Part shown: positions 27,874-39,651 of the stretch, piece after piece
Layout of the letters: each line of letters opens with the position of its first letter
How positions within the stretch are numbered: position 1 is the stretch's first letter
Source: Candidatus Dormiibacterota bacterium
Lineage (GTDB): Bacteria; Vulcanimicrobiota; Vulcanimicrobiia; Vulcanimicrobiales; Vulcanimicrobiaceae
NCBI GenBank assembly: GCA_035532035.1
Contig: DATKRS010000015.1
Span: 1-40,063, forward strand
Reading direction: 5' to 3'
Length of the DNA: 40,063 nt
The notes under the pieces: generated by a model
What the model saw: only the letters and a program-made list of their open reading frames with translations
The model's database searches: none
What the model was told of the DNA's origin: nothing
Position numbers and translations under genes: made by a program

Positions 27874-29928
27874 TTAGACGACCTCCAGCGCCGGCACGTG
27901 AGCCTCGGTTGCGTTCATCGTGAGCAGATCGTACTGCGCGACCACCTCGTCGCTCTGGTTGAAGATCGTCACCGACCAGCGCACCTCGCCATACTCCGCT
28001 TTGCGCGGCGTCTTCTCTTTGACGGTGAGCCGTACGCGCATGGTGTCGCCGGGATAGACCGGCTTGAGGAAGCGCAAGCTCTCCAGGCCGTAGTTCGCGA
28101 GAACCGGCCCGAGCTCGGGCTTCACGAAGAGTCCTGCCGCGAACGAGAGCAGTAGGTACCCGTGCGCGACGCGCCCATCGAAAAACGGGCTCGCCTTCGC
28201 GGCCGCCTCGTCCATGTGCGCGTAGAACCCGTCGCCGGTGAACTGTGCGAAGTGCTCGATGTCCGCGAGCGTCACTTCGCGCGCCCCGGTGTAGAACGTC
28301 TCGCCGACGCGGAGCGCCTCGAAGGAGAGCTCGAACGGGTGGCGCGTCGATGGGTGTTCGGCCGCGCCCGGATTCCATTGACCGCTCACCGATGCCACCC
28401 GCGACGGCGAGCCCTGCACGGCCGTGCGCTGCATGTAGTGGAAGACGCCCCGTACGCCGCCCATCTCCTCACCGCCGCCTGCGCGACCCGGCCCGCCGTG
28501 CACGAGCGGAGCGAGCGGCGAGCCATGCCCGGTCTGCTCCTTCGCGCAGTCACGATCGACGACGAGGACGCGTCCGTGGAACGGAGCGATTCCAAGCACG
28601 ATGTCGTCAACGGCGGCGGCATGGCCGAAGACCGAAGCAACGAGGCTCCCCCCGCCGCGATTGGCGATCTCGATCGCCTGCGCGACGCCGTCGTACGGCA
28701 TCAGCGTCGTTACCGGGCCGAACGCTTCGACGTCGTGGACCTTCGCGGCGTCGAGCGGCCGGTCGCAGCGCAGAACGATCGGCGACATGAACGCACCGGA
28801 TCGATCGTCCGCGCCGACGCAATCGACGTGCGCTGGATCGCCGTAGACGATCGCTGCTTCGGTCGCGAGCTCGGCAACGCGCGCGCGCACGTCGTCTCGC
28901 TGCGCGAGGCTCACGAGGGCGCCCATCGTCGCGCCTTCGGCGCGCGGGCTTCCGACGACGACCTTCTTCAACCGTTCCGTCAGAGCGCGCTGCACGTCGT
29001 CGAGATAGGTGCGGGGAGCGATCGCACGACGGATGCACGTGCAGCGTTGACCTGCCTTCGTCGTGATCTCGCGCACGATCTCCTTGACGAAGAGATCGAA
29101 CTCGGGCGTTCCGGGTGCGGCGTCGGGCGCAAGGATCGCCGCATTGAGGGAGTCACGCTCCGCAACGAATCGCACCGCGTTCTCGCGTACGGCGGGCACG
29201 GCTTGCAGCCGCGTCGACGTCGTGCGGGATCCCGTGAAAGAAACCACGTCCTGCCCCGTCAAGCGATCGAGCGCGTCACCAAGTCCGCCCGCCACGAACT
29301 GCACGCTGCCTTCGGGAAAGATGCCCGAGCGCACGATTTCCTCGAACACGGCGTGGGCGACGTATGCAGAGGGCGTTGCCGGTTTCGCGACGAGGGGTAC
29401 GCCTGCGATGATCGCAGGGGCAAGCTTTTCGAGCATGCCCCAACATGGAAAATTGTACGCGTTGATGTGGATGGCGACGCCATGGAGCGGCGTCATGACG
29501 TGACGCGCGAAGAACGTGCCGCCCTTGGAGAGCGGCTCGAGCGCACCATCGAGCGCGACGTGCGCGTTCGGCAGCTCGCGGCGTCCCTTCGACGCAAACG
29601 AGAACAGCGTCATGATGCCGCCGTCGACGTCGACGAAACAGTCCTTTTGCGTCGCTCCCGTATCGAACGACAACTCGTAGAAACGTTGCTTGTGCTCGGA
29701 GAGATGAAGCGCGAGCCGTTTTACGAGCTCCGCACGTTCGTGAAAGGTCATGCGGCGTAGCGCCGGTCCGCCCACGGCGCGTGCGTGGTCGAGCACGCCT
29801 TGGAAATCGACCCCTTGGCTCGATACGCGCGTCACGACGTGCCCGTCGATCGCCGAGCGCACCTCGACGAATCCCGTTTCTGCCTCGAACCAGCGACCGC
29901 AGACGTAGCTGCGCAGTCTCTCTTCCAT
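27874..29928 (-). CDS. paaZ: Bifunctional oxepin-CoA hydrolase / semialdehyde dehydrogenase PaaZ
   Basis: A 684-residue fusion enzyme that opens the oxepin-CoA ring and oxidises the resulting aldehyde. The N-terminal aldehyde dehydrogenase domain has [37 protein letters not shown] (general-base glutamate) and [10 protein letters not shown] (nucleophilic cysteine). The C-terminal MaoC-type hydratase domain has [12 protein letters not shown] with the Asp/His pair. The ATG at 29928 ([11 protein letters not shown]) is chosen over 29946 because GGAG precedes it and it matches family N-termini; the upstream ATG also overlaps the palindrome. First structural gene after the promoter. Confidence 0.96.
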
Positions 29929-29939
29929 CTCTCCGCTCC

Positions 29940-29953
29940 CTACCAAATGGTAG
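29940..29953. promoter_or_regulatory. Palindromic operator at the paaZ transcription start
   Basis: CTACCA-AA-TGGTAG is a perfect 6+6 inverted repeat lying directly after the expected start point of the paaZ promoter. Bound repressor would block promoter clearance. The adjacent TetR gene is the natural candidate, with an acyl-CoA such as phenylacetyl-CoA as inducer by analogy with known PaaR proteins; this link is inferred. Confidence 0.65.
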
Positions 29954-32780: not shown

Positions 32781-32923
32781 GGGGTGTACGCATGACCCTT
32801 GGGTTGCTTGCCTAGTTGTTCACCCGAAGGTCGTACTGGCAAGTGTCGAAGTTGTGTTTTTCGTCCTGGTGGTGGTCCATGAACGTGACACGGATGTCTT
32901 GCAAACAGCCGCTCTGGATCGTG
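32760..32923 (-). repeat. Diverged direct repeat, unit A (hairpin plus C-terminal module)
   Basis: Unit A covers the hairpin and the last ~37 codons of the lipoprotein. It aligns with unit B at 33463-33623 through the coding stretch TIQSGCLQDIRVTFMDHH to the stop and the following hairpin, with mostly silent or compensatory differences. Homology stops sharply at a shared GTGA. Confidence 0.75.
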
Positions 32924-33336
32924 AATGTCATACGACTGCCGGGGCCGAGAACTTGGTCGGGTTGGAGCCAATCATCGCCCCATTGGTTACTGTTCACCGG
33001 GGAGATGTTGATGTACTCGATGCCTTGATCGGCATTGTTGATGACGGTGAGCGGATGATCCGCCGATGTGGCACCGGAATTGCTCGGATTGCTCTCCGAC
33101 GCACTCGAGGCCGCCGGCGCAGCCGAGGCGGCGGTCGATTCTGCCGGCGCGGGCGAGACGGCGGTCGATTCTGCCGGCGCGGGCGAGACGGCGGCGGGTG
33201 CGGCCGAAGCGGCTACCGGGGCGGCGCCCGGCGACGCTTGCGCGCTCGTGGTTGACGACGAAGACGAGCTGCCGTGGCTGCAAGCCGCAAAAGCGGCGAC
33301 GGTCAGAACGGCGACGATCGATGAAAAACTGCGCAT
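32812..33336 (-). CDS. Small secreted lipoprotein with conserved C-terminal module
   Basis: A 174-residue protein. The N-terminus MRSFSSIVAVLTVAAFAAC is a lipoprotein signal peptide with lipobox AFAAC (Cys19). Then comes a low-complexity Ser/Ala/Pro linker including two exact copies of a 30-base unit (APAESTAVSP-type). The C-terminal ~80 residues (LTVINNADQGIEYINISPVN, WGDDWL, LGPGSRMTFTI, CLQDIRVTFMD, FDTCQYDLRV) resemble a widespread small beta module with the pattern ISPxxxxxWGxDxL...LxxG...CxxDIR. Its function is not known. The ATG at 33336 has AGGAG seven bases upstream. Confidence 0.82.
   Translation of the reverse strand: MRSFSSIVAVLTVAAFAACSHGSSSSSSTTSAQASPGAAPVAASAAPAAVSPAPAESTAVSPAPAESTAASAAPAASSASESNPSNSGATSADHPLTVINNADQGIEYINISPVNSNQWGDDWLQPDQVLGPGSRMTFTIQSGCLQDIRVTFMDHHQDEKHNFDTCQYDLRVNN
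33131..33190. repeat. Two perfect 30-bp tandem repeats in the lipoprotein linker
   Basis: Positions 33131-33160 and 33161-33190 are identical. Each encodes ten linker residues, keeping the reading frame. Such perfect copies suggest recent slippage and a length-variable linker. Confidence 0.9.
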
Positions 33337-33462
33337 GCGCGAACTCCTGTAGAATAGAAGAAGCGAGGCTCTCTTCCTCCCGGTGTTGCGCCAAGCCTGC
33401 GCCAATTTCGTGTGAACGGCGATGCAATCGAGTGCGCGCCCCATTTGGTCGGCACACCCGCC

Positions 33463-33483
33463 ATGACGCTCGCGAGCCGTCAT
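33463..33483 (-). terminator. Hairpin element, copy B
   Basis: Same core as copy A (ATGACG and CGTCAT around CTCGCGAGC), extended by CC/GG at 33461-33485. It lies about 30 bases downstream of the truncated module's TGA, the same place relative to the coding end as copy A. The A-T closing pair in place of G-C keeps the stem. Confidence 0.55.
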
Positions 33484-33623
33484 GGAGGTGCGCGTCACGG
33501 CTCTCCGGGCTTCAGCTGTTCACCCGTAGATCGTACCGGCAGGTGTCGAAGTTGCGCCGTTCGACCTGGTGATGGTCCATGAACGTGACGCGGATGTCTT
33601 GCAGGCAGCCGCTCTGGATGGTG
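33463..33623 (-). repeat. Diverged direct repeat, unit B
   Basis: Second copy of the hairpin-plus-module unit (see 32760-32923). It joins the 3' end of the solute-binding protein gene at the shared GTGA, marking a recombination or deletion junction at about 33623-33626. Confidence 0.75.
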
Positions 33624-33625
33624 AC
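33512..33625 (-). pseudogene. Truncated C-terminal module, in frame after a stop codon
   Basis: The 37 codons VTIQSGCLQDIRVTFMDHHQ through NFDTCRYDLRVNS then TGA are a close copy of the lipoprotein's C-terminus at 32812-32923. They have no start codon or signal peptide. They follow directly and in the same frame after the TAA (33626-33628) of the solute-binding protein, so stop-codon readthrough would append the module. More simply it is the remnant of a deleted paralogue. Confidence 0.75.
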
Positions 33626-35278
33626 TTAAATGTCTACGTTCATGAAGTCGTCGAACGGGGTCACGGAGTTCGGGTGGAAGCCCTTCAGATCGCGGTTGTA
33701 GGCGTACACGTCTTCACGAACGTAGGTCACGATCGTCGGCACGTCCTTGGCCAGTTGTTGAAAGAGGATCGTGTCGTCGGCATTGCGCTGTGCCTGGTCG
33801 TAGTGGGTGAAGAGCGCGTGCATCGCGTCGTCCGCCGTGTGGTTGCACCAGTGCAGATCGTTCTGCCCGTTCGGTGGGATTTGGTCGCATCCGTAGACGA
33901 ACGAGTAGTCGCCGATCGGGTCGTTCCCCCAGGCAAAGAAGACGACGTCCCACTTGCCGTTGTACACGATGCCGCCGGCTTGATACGTGTTGAAGAGTTG
34001 TGAGGACTCGTAGCGGCGCACCGTCATCGCAACCCCGATCTGCTTCCACCATTGCTGGATGAGTGCGAGCATGCTATCCGTGTCGGGCGAGCCCGCCGAA
34101 CTCGCAACCTCGAGGGCGAGACGAACGCCGTTCTTCTGACGTATGCCGTCGGACCCGCGCGTCCAGCCGTCGGCGTCGAGAATCGCGTTTGCCTTTGCGA
34201 TGTCGAAGTTCACGAAGGGAACGTTCGGGTCGAAGTACGGCGCCGACGGCGGCGCGGGCTCTTCTTCCAGAATGCCGACGCCGTGCGCGATCTTGTCGAG
34301 CAGCGTCTTGCGATCGATCGCGAGCTCGAGCGCGTGTCGAACGACCGGGTCGCTGACCGCCGGCCGGCTCACGTTGAAGTCGATATGGTTGTACAGATAC
34401 GCCGGCCGCCGTAAGTACCTAAAACCATTACCCAGTTCCGCGATGCGCCCGAAATAGTTTCCCGGCATCGGATACCAGAGGTCCAAAGCGTGAGCCTGTA
34501 GCTCCGTGAAGACGGTGTTACGGTCGGGGACGATCTCGAAATCGATCTCTTTGAGCTTCGGCTGCCCCCGCCAGTAATAGGGGTTGCGAACCATGACGAC
34601 GTCTTGGCTGCGATTCCACGCCTTGTACATGAACGGTCCCGCGCCGACCGGCAGCGCGTCGAACGGGACGTTGTTGAAGTTCGGATACTTGGCGAGGATG
34701 TGCTTGGGGAGAATCGACGGGTTCGCGTCCGCGCTCGAAAAGAAGACGACGACGAAGGGCGAGTACGGTCTGGAGAGATGAAGGATCACCGTGTACTTGT
34801 TCGGCTCGTCGACGCGCTTGATGCGATCCCATCCGGTGCGACTGACGACGTTATTCGCGGGATTGAGAATCGCGTGGATCGACCAGACGACGTCGTCGGC
34901 GTTGAGCGGCGCTCCGTCCGACCAGCGAACGCCCTTGCGAACGTGATAGGTGATCGTCAAACCGTCGGGGCTGACGCCGCCGTTCGCTTTCGTCGGAACC
35001 TCGGTCGCGATCTCGGGGATCGGGCGATTGTTGCGATCCCACTTGACGAGCCACGCGGCGGTGAGCGACGACATGAGGCCGAGCGTGCTCTGCTGGCTCA
35101 ACGCCGGATTGAGGGAGCTGATATCCTCCGCGGTTGCATAGCGCAGGACGTGCGGGATCGTCCACGCGTTGACGCGGCCGGAGCCGACGCTCGTCGTCGT
35201 GGTGGTCGTCGTGCTCTGGGTGCACCCGCCCGCGGCAATCAGGGCGAGGATGCAGGCGCCGGTCGCAAGTGGCTTCAT
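33626..35278 (-). CDS. ABC-type family-5 solute-binding lipoprotein
   Basis: A 550-residue extracytoplasmic binding protein of the oligopeptide/dipeptide type (SBP_bac_5). The signal peptide ends in lipobox LIAAGGC, followed by a Thr-rich stretch and LRYATAEDISSLNPALS. ITYHVRKGVRWSDGAPLNADDVVWSI and YNHIDFNVSRPAVSDPVVRHALELAIDR are family signatures. Some relatives bind peptides, nickel or haem. No permease or ATPase genes are adjacent, so it either uses transporter subunits encoded elsewhere or works with its operon neighbours. The ATG at 35278 is 28 bases after the preceding gene. Confidence 0.9.
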   Translation of the reverse strand: MKPLATGACILALIAAGGCTQSTTTTTTTSVGSGRVNAWTIPHVLRYATAEDISSLNPALSQQSTLGLMSSLTAAWLVKWDRNNRPIPEIATEVPTKANGGVSPDGLTITYHVRKGVRWSDGAPLNADDVVWSIHAILNPANNVVSRTGWDRIKRVDEPNKYTVILHLSRPYSPFVVVFFSSADANPSILPKHILAKYPNFNNVPFDALPVGAGPFMYKAWNRSQDVVMVRNPYYWRGQPKLKEIDFEIVPDRNTVFTELQAHALDLWYPMPGNYFGRIAELGNGFRYLRRPAYLYNHIDFNVSRPAVSDPVVRHALELAIDRKTLLDKIAHGVGILEEEPAPPSAPYFDPNVPFVNFDIAKANAILDADGWTRGSDGIRQKNGVRLALEVASSAGSPDTDSMLALIQQWWKQIGVAMTVRRYESSQLFNTYQAGGIVYNGKWDVVFFAWGNDPIGDYSFVYGCDQIPPNGQNDLHWCNHTADDAMHALFTHYDQAQRNADDTILFQQLAKDVPTIVTYVREDVYAYNRDLKGFHPNSVTPFDDFMNVDI

Positions 35279-35306: not shown

Positions 35307-36434
35307 TTACTCCCGCATCTCCCGCGGATCCAGCCCGTTACGCTCGCAGAACCCGACGTACGCCGCCGGGACGATCTCCGACGGCTTGATCTCGCTGCGG
35401 CCTCCCCAAAAGACGTTCGTATATGCGAAGTCGATGCCGGCCTCTCGCAGATGCGCGTCGATTGCGGCCTTGTGCGCGAGCACCAGCTCCTTGTCCATGC
35501 CGTGTGCGACCGCCATGATGTTGACGTCGTGGAACTCTTCGCCGCCCTCACGCCAGTAGGCGTGGGTGATGACGTGATGGCGCCCCACCTCGCGACCGGC
35601 ATCGATTTCGCGCCCGCGCGGCACCGCCCAGTGAAAGAGCGCGTTGTAGCGCGTCACTCGCTCGCCTTGCGCCGTCGCTTTCACGTGCTCGAGAAAGGTC
35701 GAAAAGCGCCCGACCACGCCTTTTGCATTGAGATCGCGTGCCGTTCGCGAAAACGTCGTGAGGTCGACGCCAGCTTCGTCGGCGCGCGCCTGCCAAAGCT
35801 CGCGGACGATCTCCTCGGCGCGGAACTCGCGTTTGAGCGTCGTGAGGACGCGCCACTCGAGCTGCGTCAAGGAAACGACGGCCGTGTCGAGCGGCTCGGC
35901 TAGCGCCTCGGCGCGCGAGCCGGGCTCGAGCCCGCGCCGGCGTACGTGGCCAACGCCGAGTGTGAAGAGCATGCGCGCGGGCATGGCGCGAAAGCGCGTC
36001 GCGCCGACGTGCTGGCGAAGAAACTCCGCATGTTTGCCGAGCGAAAATCCCTGCGGCACCTTTAGCGTCGTCCATAGGCGGTACGTGCTTCCTGCAGATA
36101 TCGCATCGGTCGTTCGGATGACGACGTGACCGGAAAACGGATCGTCGCGCACCATGTACGCGAACGCGGCGTCGAGCTGATCGTTCGAAACTTCCCAAGC
36201 GCAGAGTGCACCCCGCGCCAGGTTCGTCGCCATCAGCGTCTGACGAATGCGGCGAATCGTGCCAGCACGCAGCATCGCAGTGATTCGGTCGATGACGGTT
36301 TCGACGTCGATGCCGCTGCGCGCGGCGATCTCCCCGAACGGATCCTCCTGAAATCCCGTGAGGCGGTCCTCCGAGACGGCAAGAATCGCCGCGTTGACGG
36401 GGTCGGAGACGTTCGCCGGGACGCTCGCGTTCAC
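35307..36434 (-). CDS. Fused AhbA-AhbB/NirD-L-like protein (siroheme decarboxylase-like)
   Basis: A 375-residue protein made of two Lrp/AsnC-like halves. The first (about residues 1-180) has a winged-helix segment DPFGEIAARSGIDVETVIDRI, then IRRIRQTLMATNL, VVIRTTDA and YRLWTTLKVPQG, which align with AhbA/NirD (RRIGxxxxxxxLGY, YNLWFTL). The second (about 181-375) has GRFSTFLEH, VITHAYWREGGEEFHDVNIMAVAHG and a C-terminal EIKPSEIVPAAY, matching AhbB. These families decarboxylate siroheme in the alternative haem and haem d1 pathways, and act as separate subunits or fusions. A regulatory role cannot be excluded. Its neighbours are a TolC-like channel (gap 7) and a binding lipoprotein. Confidence 0.6.
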   Translation of the reverse strand: MNASVPANVSDPVNAAILAVSEDRLTGFQEDPFGEIAARSGIDVETVIDRITAMLRAGTIRRIRQTLMATNLARGALCAWEVSNDQLDAAFAYMVRDDPFSGHVVIRTTDAISAGSTYRLWTTLKVPQGFSLGKHAEFLRQHVGATRFRAMPARMLFTLGVGHVRRRGLEPGSRAEALAEPLDTAVVSLTQLEWRVLTTLKREFRAEEIVRELWQARADEAGVDLTTFSRTARDLNAKGVVGRFSTFLEHVKATAQGERVTRYNALFHWAVPRGREIDAGREVGRHHVITHAYWREGGEEFHDVNIMAVAHGMDKELVLAHKAAIDAHLREAGIDFAYTNVFWGGRSEIKPSEIVPAAYVGFCERNGLDPREMRE

Positions 36435-36441
36435 CGCACGC

Positions 36442-37902
36442 TCAGAGCCGTAGGTCGCTCAAGCCTGTCGCGTAGAGGTAGTTTTGCTCTGCGGTGCGCA
36501 CGCCGTAGAGCGCCGTGATGTAGTCGCTCTGCGCCGTGGCGAGGTTCGCCTCGGCGGTGACGAGGTCGAGAATCGTCCCGACGCCGACGCGGTAGCTCGC
36601 CTGCGCCGCCTGCATGCTGACTTGCGCGCTCGAAAGCTCGGAGTGGGCTTGAACGAGATTGGCTCGAGCGGAGAAGAGCTGCGCCAGCGCCGAGCGCACG
36701 TCCGACTCGACCGTGAGCTTCGCCAGCGCGAGCGCTGCGTTCGCCTCGTCGAGCGTGTACTTCGCGACCTCTGTATTATACCAGGTCAAGCCTTGATCGT
36801 AGATCGGGAACGTGATCGTCGCTCCCAGCGATCGCGCCGGCTGCCAGTGGCCGTTGTTGCCGTACGGTGGAGGAAGCGCCGGAAACTGGCGCGCCGTCGA
36901 GTCGTTCCACGACCCGGTGATCGTTGGCACGCGCGCGAGCTCCGCGTAGCGCAGATTATCGCGGTCTGCGATCACGGTGTGCTGCGCGGACTGGTAGTCT
37001 GGTCGCAGGAGCAACGCCTGCTGCAATGATTTCGCGTACGTCGGCGTGGCGGTGTAGGTGTCCGCACCGAGCGCCTCCGGGACGATCTCCGTGTTTGCGT
37101 CGAGCCCGAGCAGCGTCGCGAACTGACCTTGCGCCGTGATCTCGGCGCCTTGCGCCTGGACGAGCGCGCCTCGAGCCTTTGCCGTTTGATACTCTGCTTG
37201 CGCTAGCGCCGAGAGCGCCGAGACGCCGTTACGAATCTGCGCCCGCACGGCGTTCTCGGAGGTTTCGAACTCGTGCACGAGCTGCCGATCCGCGTCGATG
37301 AGCGCTTTGTCTTGCAACACCGTATAGTAGGATTGCGCGACGTCGTACCCGAGGGTATCGAGCTCGCGTAGAAGCGTGCCGCGCCCCGCGATGTCTGACT
37401 CTTTTGCCGCGCGGATCGCCGAGATCACGCGGCCGCCGTCGAAGATCAACTGCGACACGGTGTAGCCCGCGCTCTCGACCGTCGTGATCTGCGTCGAGGT
37501 CGTGCAAGTTGTCGGGATTGACGGATTGCAGCGCGAGGAGCCGCCGGCGAAACTCTTCTCCCACGAGCCGTTCGCACTGATCGCGGGAAAGAGCGCTTGC
37601 TGCTCGGCGCTGTAACGCGCGCGAAGCTCGCTGTAGACCGCTCGCTGCGAAGCAAACGTCGGCGAGACCGCGACGGCGATGTCGATTGCCTGCGAGAGCG
37701 AAACGCGCGGCGGAACGCCGGTATGCGGCACGAGGAGCTGAACGTCTGGCGCAGGCGTGCCGTAGGCAGGATAGGGCAGCGGCGACAGCGTCGCCGCGGG
37801 CGTGGGGACCGGCGTAGGAATCGGTATCGGGTTCTGCGCGCGCGCAAACGGCGGCGCGACGACCGCAGCCAGCGCGAGCAATGCTGCAAGACGAATACTC
37901 AC
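36442..37902 (-). CDS. TolC-family outer membrane channel
   Basis: A 486-residue outer-membrane efflux protein. A signal peptide (MSIRLAALLALAAVVAPPFARA) is followed by a Pro-rich linker and two alpha-helical repeats typical of TolC (QAIDIAVAVSPTFASQRAVY, LDTLGYDVAQSYYTVLQDKA, ALLLRPDYQSAQHTV, VGVGTILDLVTAEANLATAQ). It would form the channel of an efflux system with the adaptor encoded upstream. GTG start at 37902 overlaps the adaptor stop (GTGA). Confidence 0.9.
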   Translation of the reverse strand: MSIRLAALLALAAVVAPPFARAQNPIPIPTPVPTPAATLSPLPYPAYGTPAPDVQLLVPHTGVPPRVSLSQAIDIAVAVSPTFASQRAVYSELRARYSAEQQALFPAISANGSWEKSFAGGSSRCNPSIPTTCTTSTQITTVESAGYTVSQLIFDGGRVISAIRAAKESDIAGRGTLLRELDTLGYDVAQSYYTVLQDKALIDADRQLVHEFETSENAVRAQIRNGVSALSALAQAEYQTAKARGALVQAQGAEITAQGQFATLLGLDANTEIVPEALGADTYTATPTYAKSLQQALLLRPDYQSAQHTVIADRDNLRYAELARVPTITGSWNDSTARQFPALPPPYGNNGHWQPARSLGATITFPIYDQGLTWYNTEVAKYTLDEANAALALAKLTVESDVRSALAQLFSARANLVQAHSELSSAQVSMQAAQASYRVGVGTILDLVTAEANLATAQSDYITALYGVRTAEQNYLYATGLSDLRL

Positions 37903-39125
37903 GGGGCGGGCGTTCCCGCCACGGCAACCGCGCTCCCGTCGCGTAGCGCGTCTGGGCGCGTCGTGATGACCAAGGTGCCAGGCACGATCCTCGGGCTGAT
38001 CACTTGAGCGAGCGTATCGGTTTCCAGGCCGAGACGAACCGGTACCTGCGAGGCGACGTTGCCGTGGACCGCATACACGAACGTTCCGGCGCCCGTCTGC
38101 GAAACGGCGGATCGCGGAACGACGATCGCGCCCCTCCGGCGCGCCTGCGTGATGACGACGTTGACGAGCATCCCTCCGCGCAGCAGGCTGTCGGGATTAG
38201 GAAGATTCATACGCGCGAGGTACGAGAGCGTGCCCGCCGTCGGCACCGCATTGACCGCCGCGATGCGCCCGTGGAACGAGCGCCCAGGCAGCGAATCCGT
38301 GCTGAAGACGAGCAGCTTGCCGGGCGTCACGTACGCCAGGTCCGAGTCGGGAACGTTGACGTTGATCCACACGGTGCTGACGCGAGAGATGTCGAGCACG
38401 GGAACTTGGGGTCCGGCTTGCGACCCAGGGTCCATCAGCCGCGCGGTGATGACGCCGTCGTAGGGAGCGTACAGATACGTCTGTCCGATCTCGGTCTCGA
38501 GCAAGCCGGCTTGGGCCTGTGCGCTCTGGGCGCTCGCGAGCGATGCCTTTACGTTTTCGCCGGCGACGACGTTGTTGCGTACGCCCATCGTGGCGCTTTG
38601 GTACGCGCTCTGCGCCTGGACGAGCGCGGAGCGCGCGGCCTCCAACGTCTGCTGCGAGACGTATCCTTGGCGAAAGAGCGCGCTGTCTTGGTCGAAGACC
38701 ATGCGCGCGTTTTGATATGCCGCTCTCGCGGTCGAGAGGGCGGTCGTGTTTTGCGTCTGTGCCACCGGCAGACCGATCACCGCTCCACGCGCCGTTGCCG
38801 ACGCTTGGCGATACGCGGCCTGCGCTTGGGCGTACTGCGCGCGCAGCAACGAGTCGTCGATGCGCGCCAGCAGCTCGCCGCGGCGAACGCGATCGCCGAC
38901 GTTGACGTAGACGCCGGTGATCGCGCCGCTCTGCTGAAAGGCGAGCGACGACTGCTCGAGCGGCGCGATCTGGCCGTCGAGCGTGATATACGTCGCGATG
39001 TCTTGGCGCTTTGCCGCGGCTACGTCGACGTTGAGTGGCGGCGCGGCTTGCGAGCCTCCACGTTGGCCGCACGCAGCCAAGACGAGCGCAGCAAGCGCCG
39101 CCGCAGTCAAACGGTGATGGTGCAT
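37899..39125 (-). CDS. RND-type periplasmic adaptor lipoprotein (HlyD/MFP)
   Basis: A 408-residue membrane fusion protein. MHHHRLTAAALAALVLAAC is a lipoprotein signal with lipobox LAAC. The lipoyl-like domain (ITLDGQIAPLEQSSLAFQQSGAI, VYVNVGDRVRRGELLARIDD) surrounds a long coiled-coil hairpin rich in Ala and Gln, followed by YLYAPYDGVITARLMDPGSQ and the beta-barrel domain. It normally joins an inner-membrane pump to TolC, but no pump gene is in the visible operon. The ATG at 39125 sits very close to GGGGAG; the frame is open to 39182, but the lipobox favours 39125. Confidence 0.9.
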   Translation of the reverse strand: MHHHRLTAAALAALVLAACGQRGGSQAAPPLNVDVAAAKRQDIATYITLDGQIAPLEQSSLAFQQSGAITGVYVNVGDRVRRGELLARIDDSLLRAQYAQAQAAYRQASATARGAVIGLPVAQTQNTTALSTARAAYQNARMVFDQDSALFRQGYVSQQTLEAARSALVQAQSAYQSATMGVRNNVVAGENVKASLASAQSAQAQAGLLETEIGQTYLYAPYDGVITARLMDPGSQAGPQVPVLDISRVSTVWINVNVPDSDLAYVTPGKLLVFSTDSLPGRSFHGRIAAVNAVPTAGTLSYLARMNLPNPDSLLRGGMLVNVVITQARRRGAIVVPRSAVSQTGAGTFVYAVHGNVASQVPVRLGLETDTLAQVISPRIVPGTLVITTRPDALRDGSAVAVAGTPAP

Positions 39126-39258
39126 ATCTCCCCTGTTCTCATATGTGTCGGCTGGGGTGAATACCCTCCGACGGCCCCGCATGATTCAATCCGCAGCACA
39201 AAAACCTCAAGCATCCTCTAGGAAGCTCCGGAAGTGCCGACGTATCGGTCCCCCCACG
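39126..39258. other. Divergent intergenic region
   Basis: 133 bases between the adaptor and thioesterase starts. It must carry both promoters, but I find no convincing -35/-10 pair in either direction. Confidence 0.4.
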
Positions 39259-39651
39259 ATGGCAAAGCTCGACATCGGCCGCTCGCACAGCCTGCAGAGC
39301 CGCGTCGAGGAGTGGATGACCGCCGAGCACGCCGGCAACAAGGGCGTGGACGTCCTCGCCACCTCGGTGCTCGTCCAGATGATCGAGCAAGCGGCGACCG
39401 ACTGCCTCGCGCCATTCTTAGAGGAAGGCCGCGTCAGCCTGGGCACCCACATCGAGCTCGAGCACCGGGAGCCCGTCCCCGTGGGGTTCATCGTCAAAAT
39501 CGAGGTCGAGATCGTCACGATCGACGGCCCCCGGGTCACCTTCGCCGTGAGGGTTTTCGACGAGCAGGAAGCAGTGGCCGAGGGCAGCCATGAGCGGTAC
39601 ATCATCGAGCGGTCAAAGTTCCTCTCGAAGTTGCAGGAAAAGCTCTCCTAG
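39259..39651 (+). CDS. Hotdog thioesterase, fluoroacetyl-CoA thioesterase-like
   Basis: A 130-residue single-domain hotdog protein. LATSVLVQMIEQAATDCLAP carries the Thr/Glu region, SLGTHIELEHREPVPVG the catalytic histidine segment, and SHERYII the C-terminal helix motif, the arrangement seen in FlK-type thioesterases. Most relatives act on unknown acyl-CoAs, so defluorination is not implied. The ATG at 39259 is chosen because upstream residues have no similarity. A hairpin follows its stop. Confidence 0.78.
   Translation: MAKLDIGRSHSLQSRVEEWMTAEHAGNKGVDVLATSVLVQMIEQAATDCLAPFLEEGRVSLGTHIELEHREPVPVGFIVKIEVEIVTIDGPRVTFAVRVFDEQEAVAEGSHERYIIERSKFLSKLQEKLS

Follow-up and report, generated by a model that had tools for sequence, protein, structure and literature searches.

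The minus strand of the window, the whole analysed stretch of 40,063 nucleotides from Candidatus Dormiibacterota bacterium (contig DATKRS010000015.1), encodes a 375-residue protein with an AhbA-like N-terminal half and an AhbB-like C-terminal half, here called the fused protein. We consider it, with a probability of roughly 0.8, a single-chain siroheme decarboxylase that would catalyze the first committed step of a siroheme-dependent haem b route replacing HemE and HemH. The fold, the conservation of the mapped pocket residues, the co-occurrence and exclusion of haem-pathway genes, and the repeated change of state among relatives were computed; from them we infer the substrate, the reaction, and the order of the pathway.

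Sequence, fold and pocket of the fused protein

Two AsnC_trans_reg2 domains are detected in the fused protein by Pfam (60.2 bits, cut-off 27), together with a NirD/L-type helix-turn-helix (HTH) at 25.8 bits, just under the cut-off of 27. The NCBIfam model of AhbA matches the N half (residues 28-161) at 51.5 bits, below the equivalog cut-off of 140, and that of AhbB matches the C half (residues 209-329) at 77.6 bits, below the equivalog cut-off of 125. The sole strong relatives found by sequence search of the PDB are NirDL (4ch7) and AhbA/AhbB (4czd), and in a profile search NirDL matches residues 26-321 with 60 bits.

An AlphaFold2 model was built from 55 sequences (predicted local distance difference test, pLDDT, 88; predicted template-modelling score, pTM, 0.82). 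In the model one barrel is formed by the two AsnC-like halves, each of which carries an HTH. Its best structural match is NirDL (4ch7/4czc), with a Z of 25.4 over 300 residues and both halves in register, and the Foldseek comparison with NirDL gives an E of 5.6e-19. In contrast, the Lrp/AsnC regulators, which share the HTH and a ferredoxin-like ligand domain with the fused protein, are single units in which no HxYxR pocket is expected, and they reach a Z of at most 9.6, mostly with one half covered. The earlier note had read the protein as two-halved and AhbA/AhbB (NirD/L)-like from motif similarity, and both the matches of the halves and the NirDL fold bear this out.

The five mapped pocket residues (Table 1) do not vary among 40 orthologues or among 55 sequences drawn from several phyla; they include both of the pocket histidines, whose absence from homologues would, according to the earlier note, have refuted its reading. 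By sequence alignment, H103 and R107 correspond to His115 and Arg119 of AhbA, and H291, Y293, and R295 to His98, Tyr100, and Arg102 of AhbB (D. desulfuricans). His115 of AhbA is an iron ligand, and the Arg102Ala variant of AhbB is inactive (PMC4145669). The HxYxR of the AhbB-like half is thus present, as are the iron-ligand histidine and the arginine of the AhbA-like half. Because the NirDL match lies far above those of the regulators and none of the mapped pocket residues varies, the fused protein is, as judged from its sequence and model, a siroheme-decarboxylase homologue and not an AsnC regulator; its best similarity is to the enzymes, and AsnC regulators do not score best for its halves.

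Haem genes of the same genome and the proposed route

One contig of the same genome (C32) carries a Met8-HemC fusion, HemB, HemL, HemA, and a SUMT-HemD fusion, those without a curated match being named from sequence motifs. These genes adjoin TatC, ResB, CcsA, Rieske, and cytochrome b genes, and the organism therefore uses haem proteins. The Met8-HemC fusion, HemA, SUMT, and HemQ exceed curated cut-offs, HemQ (on contig C26) with 277 bits against 253. Both SUMT and a precorrin-2 dehydrogenase (in Met8-HemC) are present, while neither HemE nor HemH was found in this genome. A radical-SAM protein on contig C24 is closest to NirJ1/AhbC and has an intact CxxxCxxC motif (CNLRCEHC), its scores of 500.7 and 474 bits being under the cut-off of 650; NirJ1 is an alias of AhbC (PMC10991733).

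In the proposed route, Glu-tRNA would be converted by HemA, HemL, HemB, HemC, and HemD and by SUMT, all from the organism's own genome, and Met8, assigned only as precorrin-2 dehydrogenase, would act on the SUMT product. The fused decarboxylase would then convert siroheme to didecarboxysiroheme, the NirJ1/AhbC-like enzyme would convert the latter to coproheme, and HemQ would convert coproheme to haem b.

The precorrin-2 dehydrogenase (Met8/CysG N-terminal) is joined to HemC in one open frame (G000:C32, L187 13573-15111). The AhbD-like radical-SAM copy of the genome is a member of TIGR04053.

Co-occurrence with haem-pathway genes

A survey of haem genes, proposed in the earlier note, was made in 65 genomes of the Eremiobacterota family to which the window belongs (f1) and its sister family (f2), of which 51 have the fused gene (carriers) and 14 do not. 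SUMT and HemQ accompany the fused gene, and HemE and HemH mostly exclude it. HemE and HemH are each absent from 48 of the 51 carriers, the same three (G001, G013, and G047) having both, while SUMT is present in all 51 and HemQ in 50. The corresponding counts in the 14 non-carriers are 12 for HemE, 11 for HemH, and 5 for SUMT. Nearly all carriers thus possess the final coproheme decarboxylase expected of a siroheme-dependent pathway, and HemE and ferrochelatase would be dispensable in most of them. Since SUMT is present and NIR_SIR, the sulfite/nitrite reductase that would use siroheme, is absent in 38 of the 51, siroheme is probably a precursor in these 38.

The state of the fused gene differs even within single genera (g1, g13, g19, g37, and g39). 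In the tree built from the adaptor protein of the same operon it changes 12 times, 10 of which are forced by starred branches, so that at least 10 changes are required. Among 10 independent pairs, the change in HemE is opposite to that in the fused gene in 7-8 and parallel to it in none (median p 0.008), and SUMT changes in parallel with the fused gene in 7-8 (median p 0.016).

These counts bear on the alternative that survives best, namely that a decarboxylase of the same fold acts on another tetrapyrrole, for example on the acetates of Fe-uroporphyrin, and replaces HemE directly. NirDL has been crystallized with an Fe-uroporphyrin III analogue, and the near-absence of HemE from the carriers, many of which also lack AhbC, would fit such an activity. 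However, the presence of SUMT in every carrier and its absence from 9 of the 14 non-carriers point to a methylated precursor, and within the set of family-f1 genomes examined, AhbC-like genes were confined to carriers. This alternative is therefore considered unlikely.

AhbD-like radical-SAM genes were tried as a pathway marker and rejected, as they are found in carriers and non-carriers alike and are uncorrelated with the fused gene. Some lie near hemE and hemH (G001:C158, G013:C86, and G061:C46; L227, L226, and L230), and a hemY-like gene accompanies some of these loci. In several carriers (L231-L235), HemQ lies near nrdR-like, dut, and PanE/ApbA-like reductase genes.

The operon with and without the fused gene

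The open reading frames confirm the minus-strand order given in the earlier note, which is adaptor lipoprotein, TolC-type channel, fused protein, and family-5 solute-binding lipoprotein, with an overlap of 4 bases (gap -4) between the first two genes and gaps of 7 and 28 bases after them. Of 40 related loci that have the fused gene, nearly all keep this order, and the arrangement is therefore not due to chance. Among the four proteins, conservation over the 40 loci is highest for the fused protein, with 67-89% identity to the window copy, compared to 36-92% for the binding protein, 35-92% for TolC, and 42-89% for the adaptor. Tandem copies of the binding-protein gene, from one to five, follow the fused gene (e.g., L035, L040, L065, L068, and L069), and a permease is not nearby.

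The earlier note had asked whether the four genes stay together in related genomes. They do so in order within the family, 11 members of which, however, lack the fused gene (G006, G007, G008, G009, G011, G019, G023, G027, G034, G043, and G051). These retain the adaptor, TolC, and binding-protein genes beside the FlK-like thioesterase gene, the binding-protein gene being fragmentary in G051, and no credible remnant of the fused gene was found between tolC and the binding-protein gene in any of the 11. An outside family (f3) does not have the fused gene; there, the adaptor-TolC-binding-protein order is found in G075, and G065 contains the same genes, though spaced by a longer gap. Since the operon is retained where the fused gene is lacking, the transport genes are independent of that gene and are probably unrelated to it. 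The constant slot between tolC and the binding-protein gene argues for ancestral presence and repeated loss: the fused gene would stand there by ancestry and would have been lost without disturbing the operon. Alternatively, it may have been gained repeatedly by recombination over the flanks.

These observations also decide against the tetrapyrrole export/uptake module suggested in the earlier note, in which the adaptor and TolC would export haem precursors, the binding protein would capture haem, and the fused protein would modify or sense a tetrapyrrole. In E. coli, TolC is an exporter of porphyrins and DppA, a family-5 protein, binds haem, and the family conserves the gene order. However, the operon stays without the fused gene in the 11 relatives and in G075, the fused gene is not next to efflux genes in other phyla, and the window operon contains neither an inner-membrane pump nor an ABC permease. 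The module is thus very improbable. Slightly less probable still is the other suggestion, a fused AsnC-type sensor controlling transport, taken here as an AsnC/Lrp-type regulator of the transport operon whose ligand would be a tetrapyrrole or another compound. Despite the HTH and the AsnC fold relatives, the best whole-length matches are enzymes with catalytic residues invariant, the same HTH is retained by the NirDL/AhbAB enzymes, the presence of the gene tracks haem-biosynthesis genes, and the supposed target operon exists without it.

Relatives beyond the phylum

A scan in which each GTDB species was represented by one genome gave at least 575 further stretches with relatives of the fused protein. 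Among the best 80 are Verrucomicrobia, Phycisphaerae, Gemmatimonadetes, Armatimonadetes, Chloroflexi, and Thermoanaerobaculia, along with other genomes, and the identity is 63-69% for most of these. Many of the carriers are soil and water bacteria without the usual haem genes. Genuine HemE (> 370 bits) occurs in only 3 of 50 carrier genomes of other phyla, for which completeness is not given, and the remaining ones have no HemE or weaker URO-D relatives (≤ 210 bits). No conserved neighbour and no recurring tetrapyrrole or efflux genes were found around the fused gene in other phyla, except for HemW, and no match was found in the plasmid records searched. The HemW-type gene is just upstream or one to two genes away in six Verrucomicrobia loci (L106, L111, L113, L118, L119, and L147).

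It is tentatively proposed, at somewhat below even odds, that the siroheme-dependent haem route with the fused decarboxylase and HemQ is used across many phyla (Verrucomicrobia, Planctomycetes, Gemmatimonadetes, Armatimonadetes, Acidobacteria, Chloroflexi, and Eremiobacterota), and that in many of them another enzyme replaces AhbC in converting didecarboxysiroheme to coproheme.

Evidence against the proposed siroheme route

Several observations weigh against the siroheme decarboxylase assignment. The AhbC-like enzymes score only 450-550 (cut-off 650) and are present in a minority of carriers, among them G000, G031, G033, and G048. A recognizable AhbC is missing from many, including G042 and the near-complete G015, G012, G054, and G057, and the radical-SAM matches in G015 and G012 are weak only. 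The proposed route therefore has a hole at the step from didecarboxysiroheme to coproheme, and in carriers without AhbC either another enzyme performs this step or the substrate differs. No specific AhbC substitute was found beside SUMT and HemQ in the carriers.

Furthermore, neither half reaches its equivalog cut-off, and the N-half motif is HxVxR instead of HxYxR, V105 being invariant. No role is assigned to the tyrosine of the AhbA half in PMC4145669. Because this tyrosine is replaced, the fused protein is assigned, by its residues, to a subfamily within the NirDL/AhbAB superfamily and not classed as a typical AhbA. Finally, the tree is that of the adaptor, a single operon gene standing in for the species tree, most of the genomes compared are metagenome-assembled, and outside the phylum, the haem-gene check of the 50 carriers was confined to HemE.

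Comparison with known systems

NirDL of Hydrogenobacter thermophilus (4ch7, 4czc) likewise joins two AsnC-like, HTH-bearing halves in a single chain, and shares with the fused protein the fold over 300 residues and both pocket histidines and arginines. It differs in that it belongs to haem d1 synthesis and is only about 18-20% identical; the fused protein has valine for the tyrosine of the N-half motif and a longer loop after that motif. The halves also correspond to Desulfovibrio AhbA and AhbB (4czd, 4un1) and to the fused archaeal AhbAB, with the mapped catalytic residues present, whereas the fused protein remains below the NCBIfam cut-offs and is spread over many bacterial phyla. Fused AhbAB has been reported for many archaea (PMC11237513), and the siroheme-dependent haem route has been attributed to archaea and some sulfate reducers (PMC10991733) or to archaea alone (PMC8529089). 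No paper describing it in the phyla named here was found in a literature coverage that is incomplete.

Haloferax volcanii possesses Ahb genes and ChdC (PitA) but no uroD, cgoX, or cpfC, and the authors left open the origin of coproheme under aerobic conditions (PMC5746218). Like the carriers, it has a siroheme decarboxylase and a coproheme decarboxylase together. In contrast to the many carriers without a recognizable AhbC, it has both AhbC and AhbD.

Other features of the window

The operon genes and their divergent neighbour are listed in Table 1. The binding-protein gene sits just beyond 35307-39125, the interval covered by the earlier note. By Pfam, the binding protein matches SBP_bac_5 (284 bits), the channel OEP (168 bits), and the adaptor HlyD_D23 (94 bits), the last also matching TIGR01730 with 197.7 bits (cut-off 94.9).

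Table 1. Features of the operon and its flank (RND, resistance-nodulation-division)
Feature	Position	Strand	Remark
Family-5 solute-binding lipoprotein (SBP_bac_5)	33626..35278	-	Operon neighbour, function probably unrelated
Fused AhbA-AhbB (NirDL-like) protein	35307..36434	-	375 aa; proposed siroheme decarboxylase
Mapped pocket residues of the fused protein			N half H103/R107; C half H291/Y293/R295
TolC-type outer-membrane channel	36442..37902	-	Operon neighbour, function probably unrelated
RND/HlyD-type periplasmic adaptor lipoprotein	37899..39125	-	Operon neighbour, function probably unrelated
FlK-like thioesterase	39145..39651	+	Divergent flanking gene, kept with or without the fused gene

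The thioesterase, of the fluoroacetyl-CoA type, is kept at this place in most relatives. A direct repeat of 111 nucleotides (86%) occupies positions 32814-32924 and 33514-33624 and contains the tail of a small lipoprotein-like gene (32812-33498); its second copy, a leftover of duplication, starts right at the stop of the binding-protein gene. The small gene contains three tandem repeats of 30 nucleotides (33105-33194). A neighbouring gene group includes an aldehyde dehydrogenase-MaoC fusion (PaaZ-like, 27874-29946).

Implications

If the fused protein is a siroheme decarboxylase as proposed, the siroheme-dependent route would be a haem route in many bacterial phyla, repeatedly swapped with the HemE/HemH route, even within one genus, and it would explain possible haem synthesis in bacteria without HemE and HemH. 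It would also expose a missing AhbC substitute, akin to the coproheme-source question in Haloferax (PMC5746218), which would be testable by genome comparison. Moreover, annotations would be corrected, as genes of this kind can be mistaken for those of AsnC regulators.

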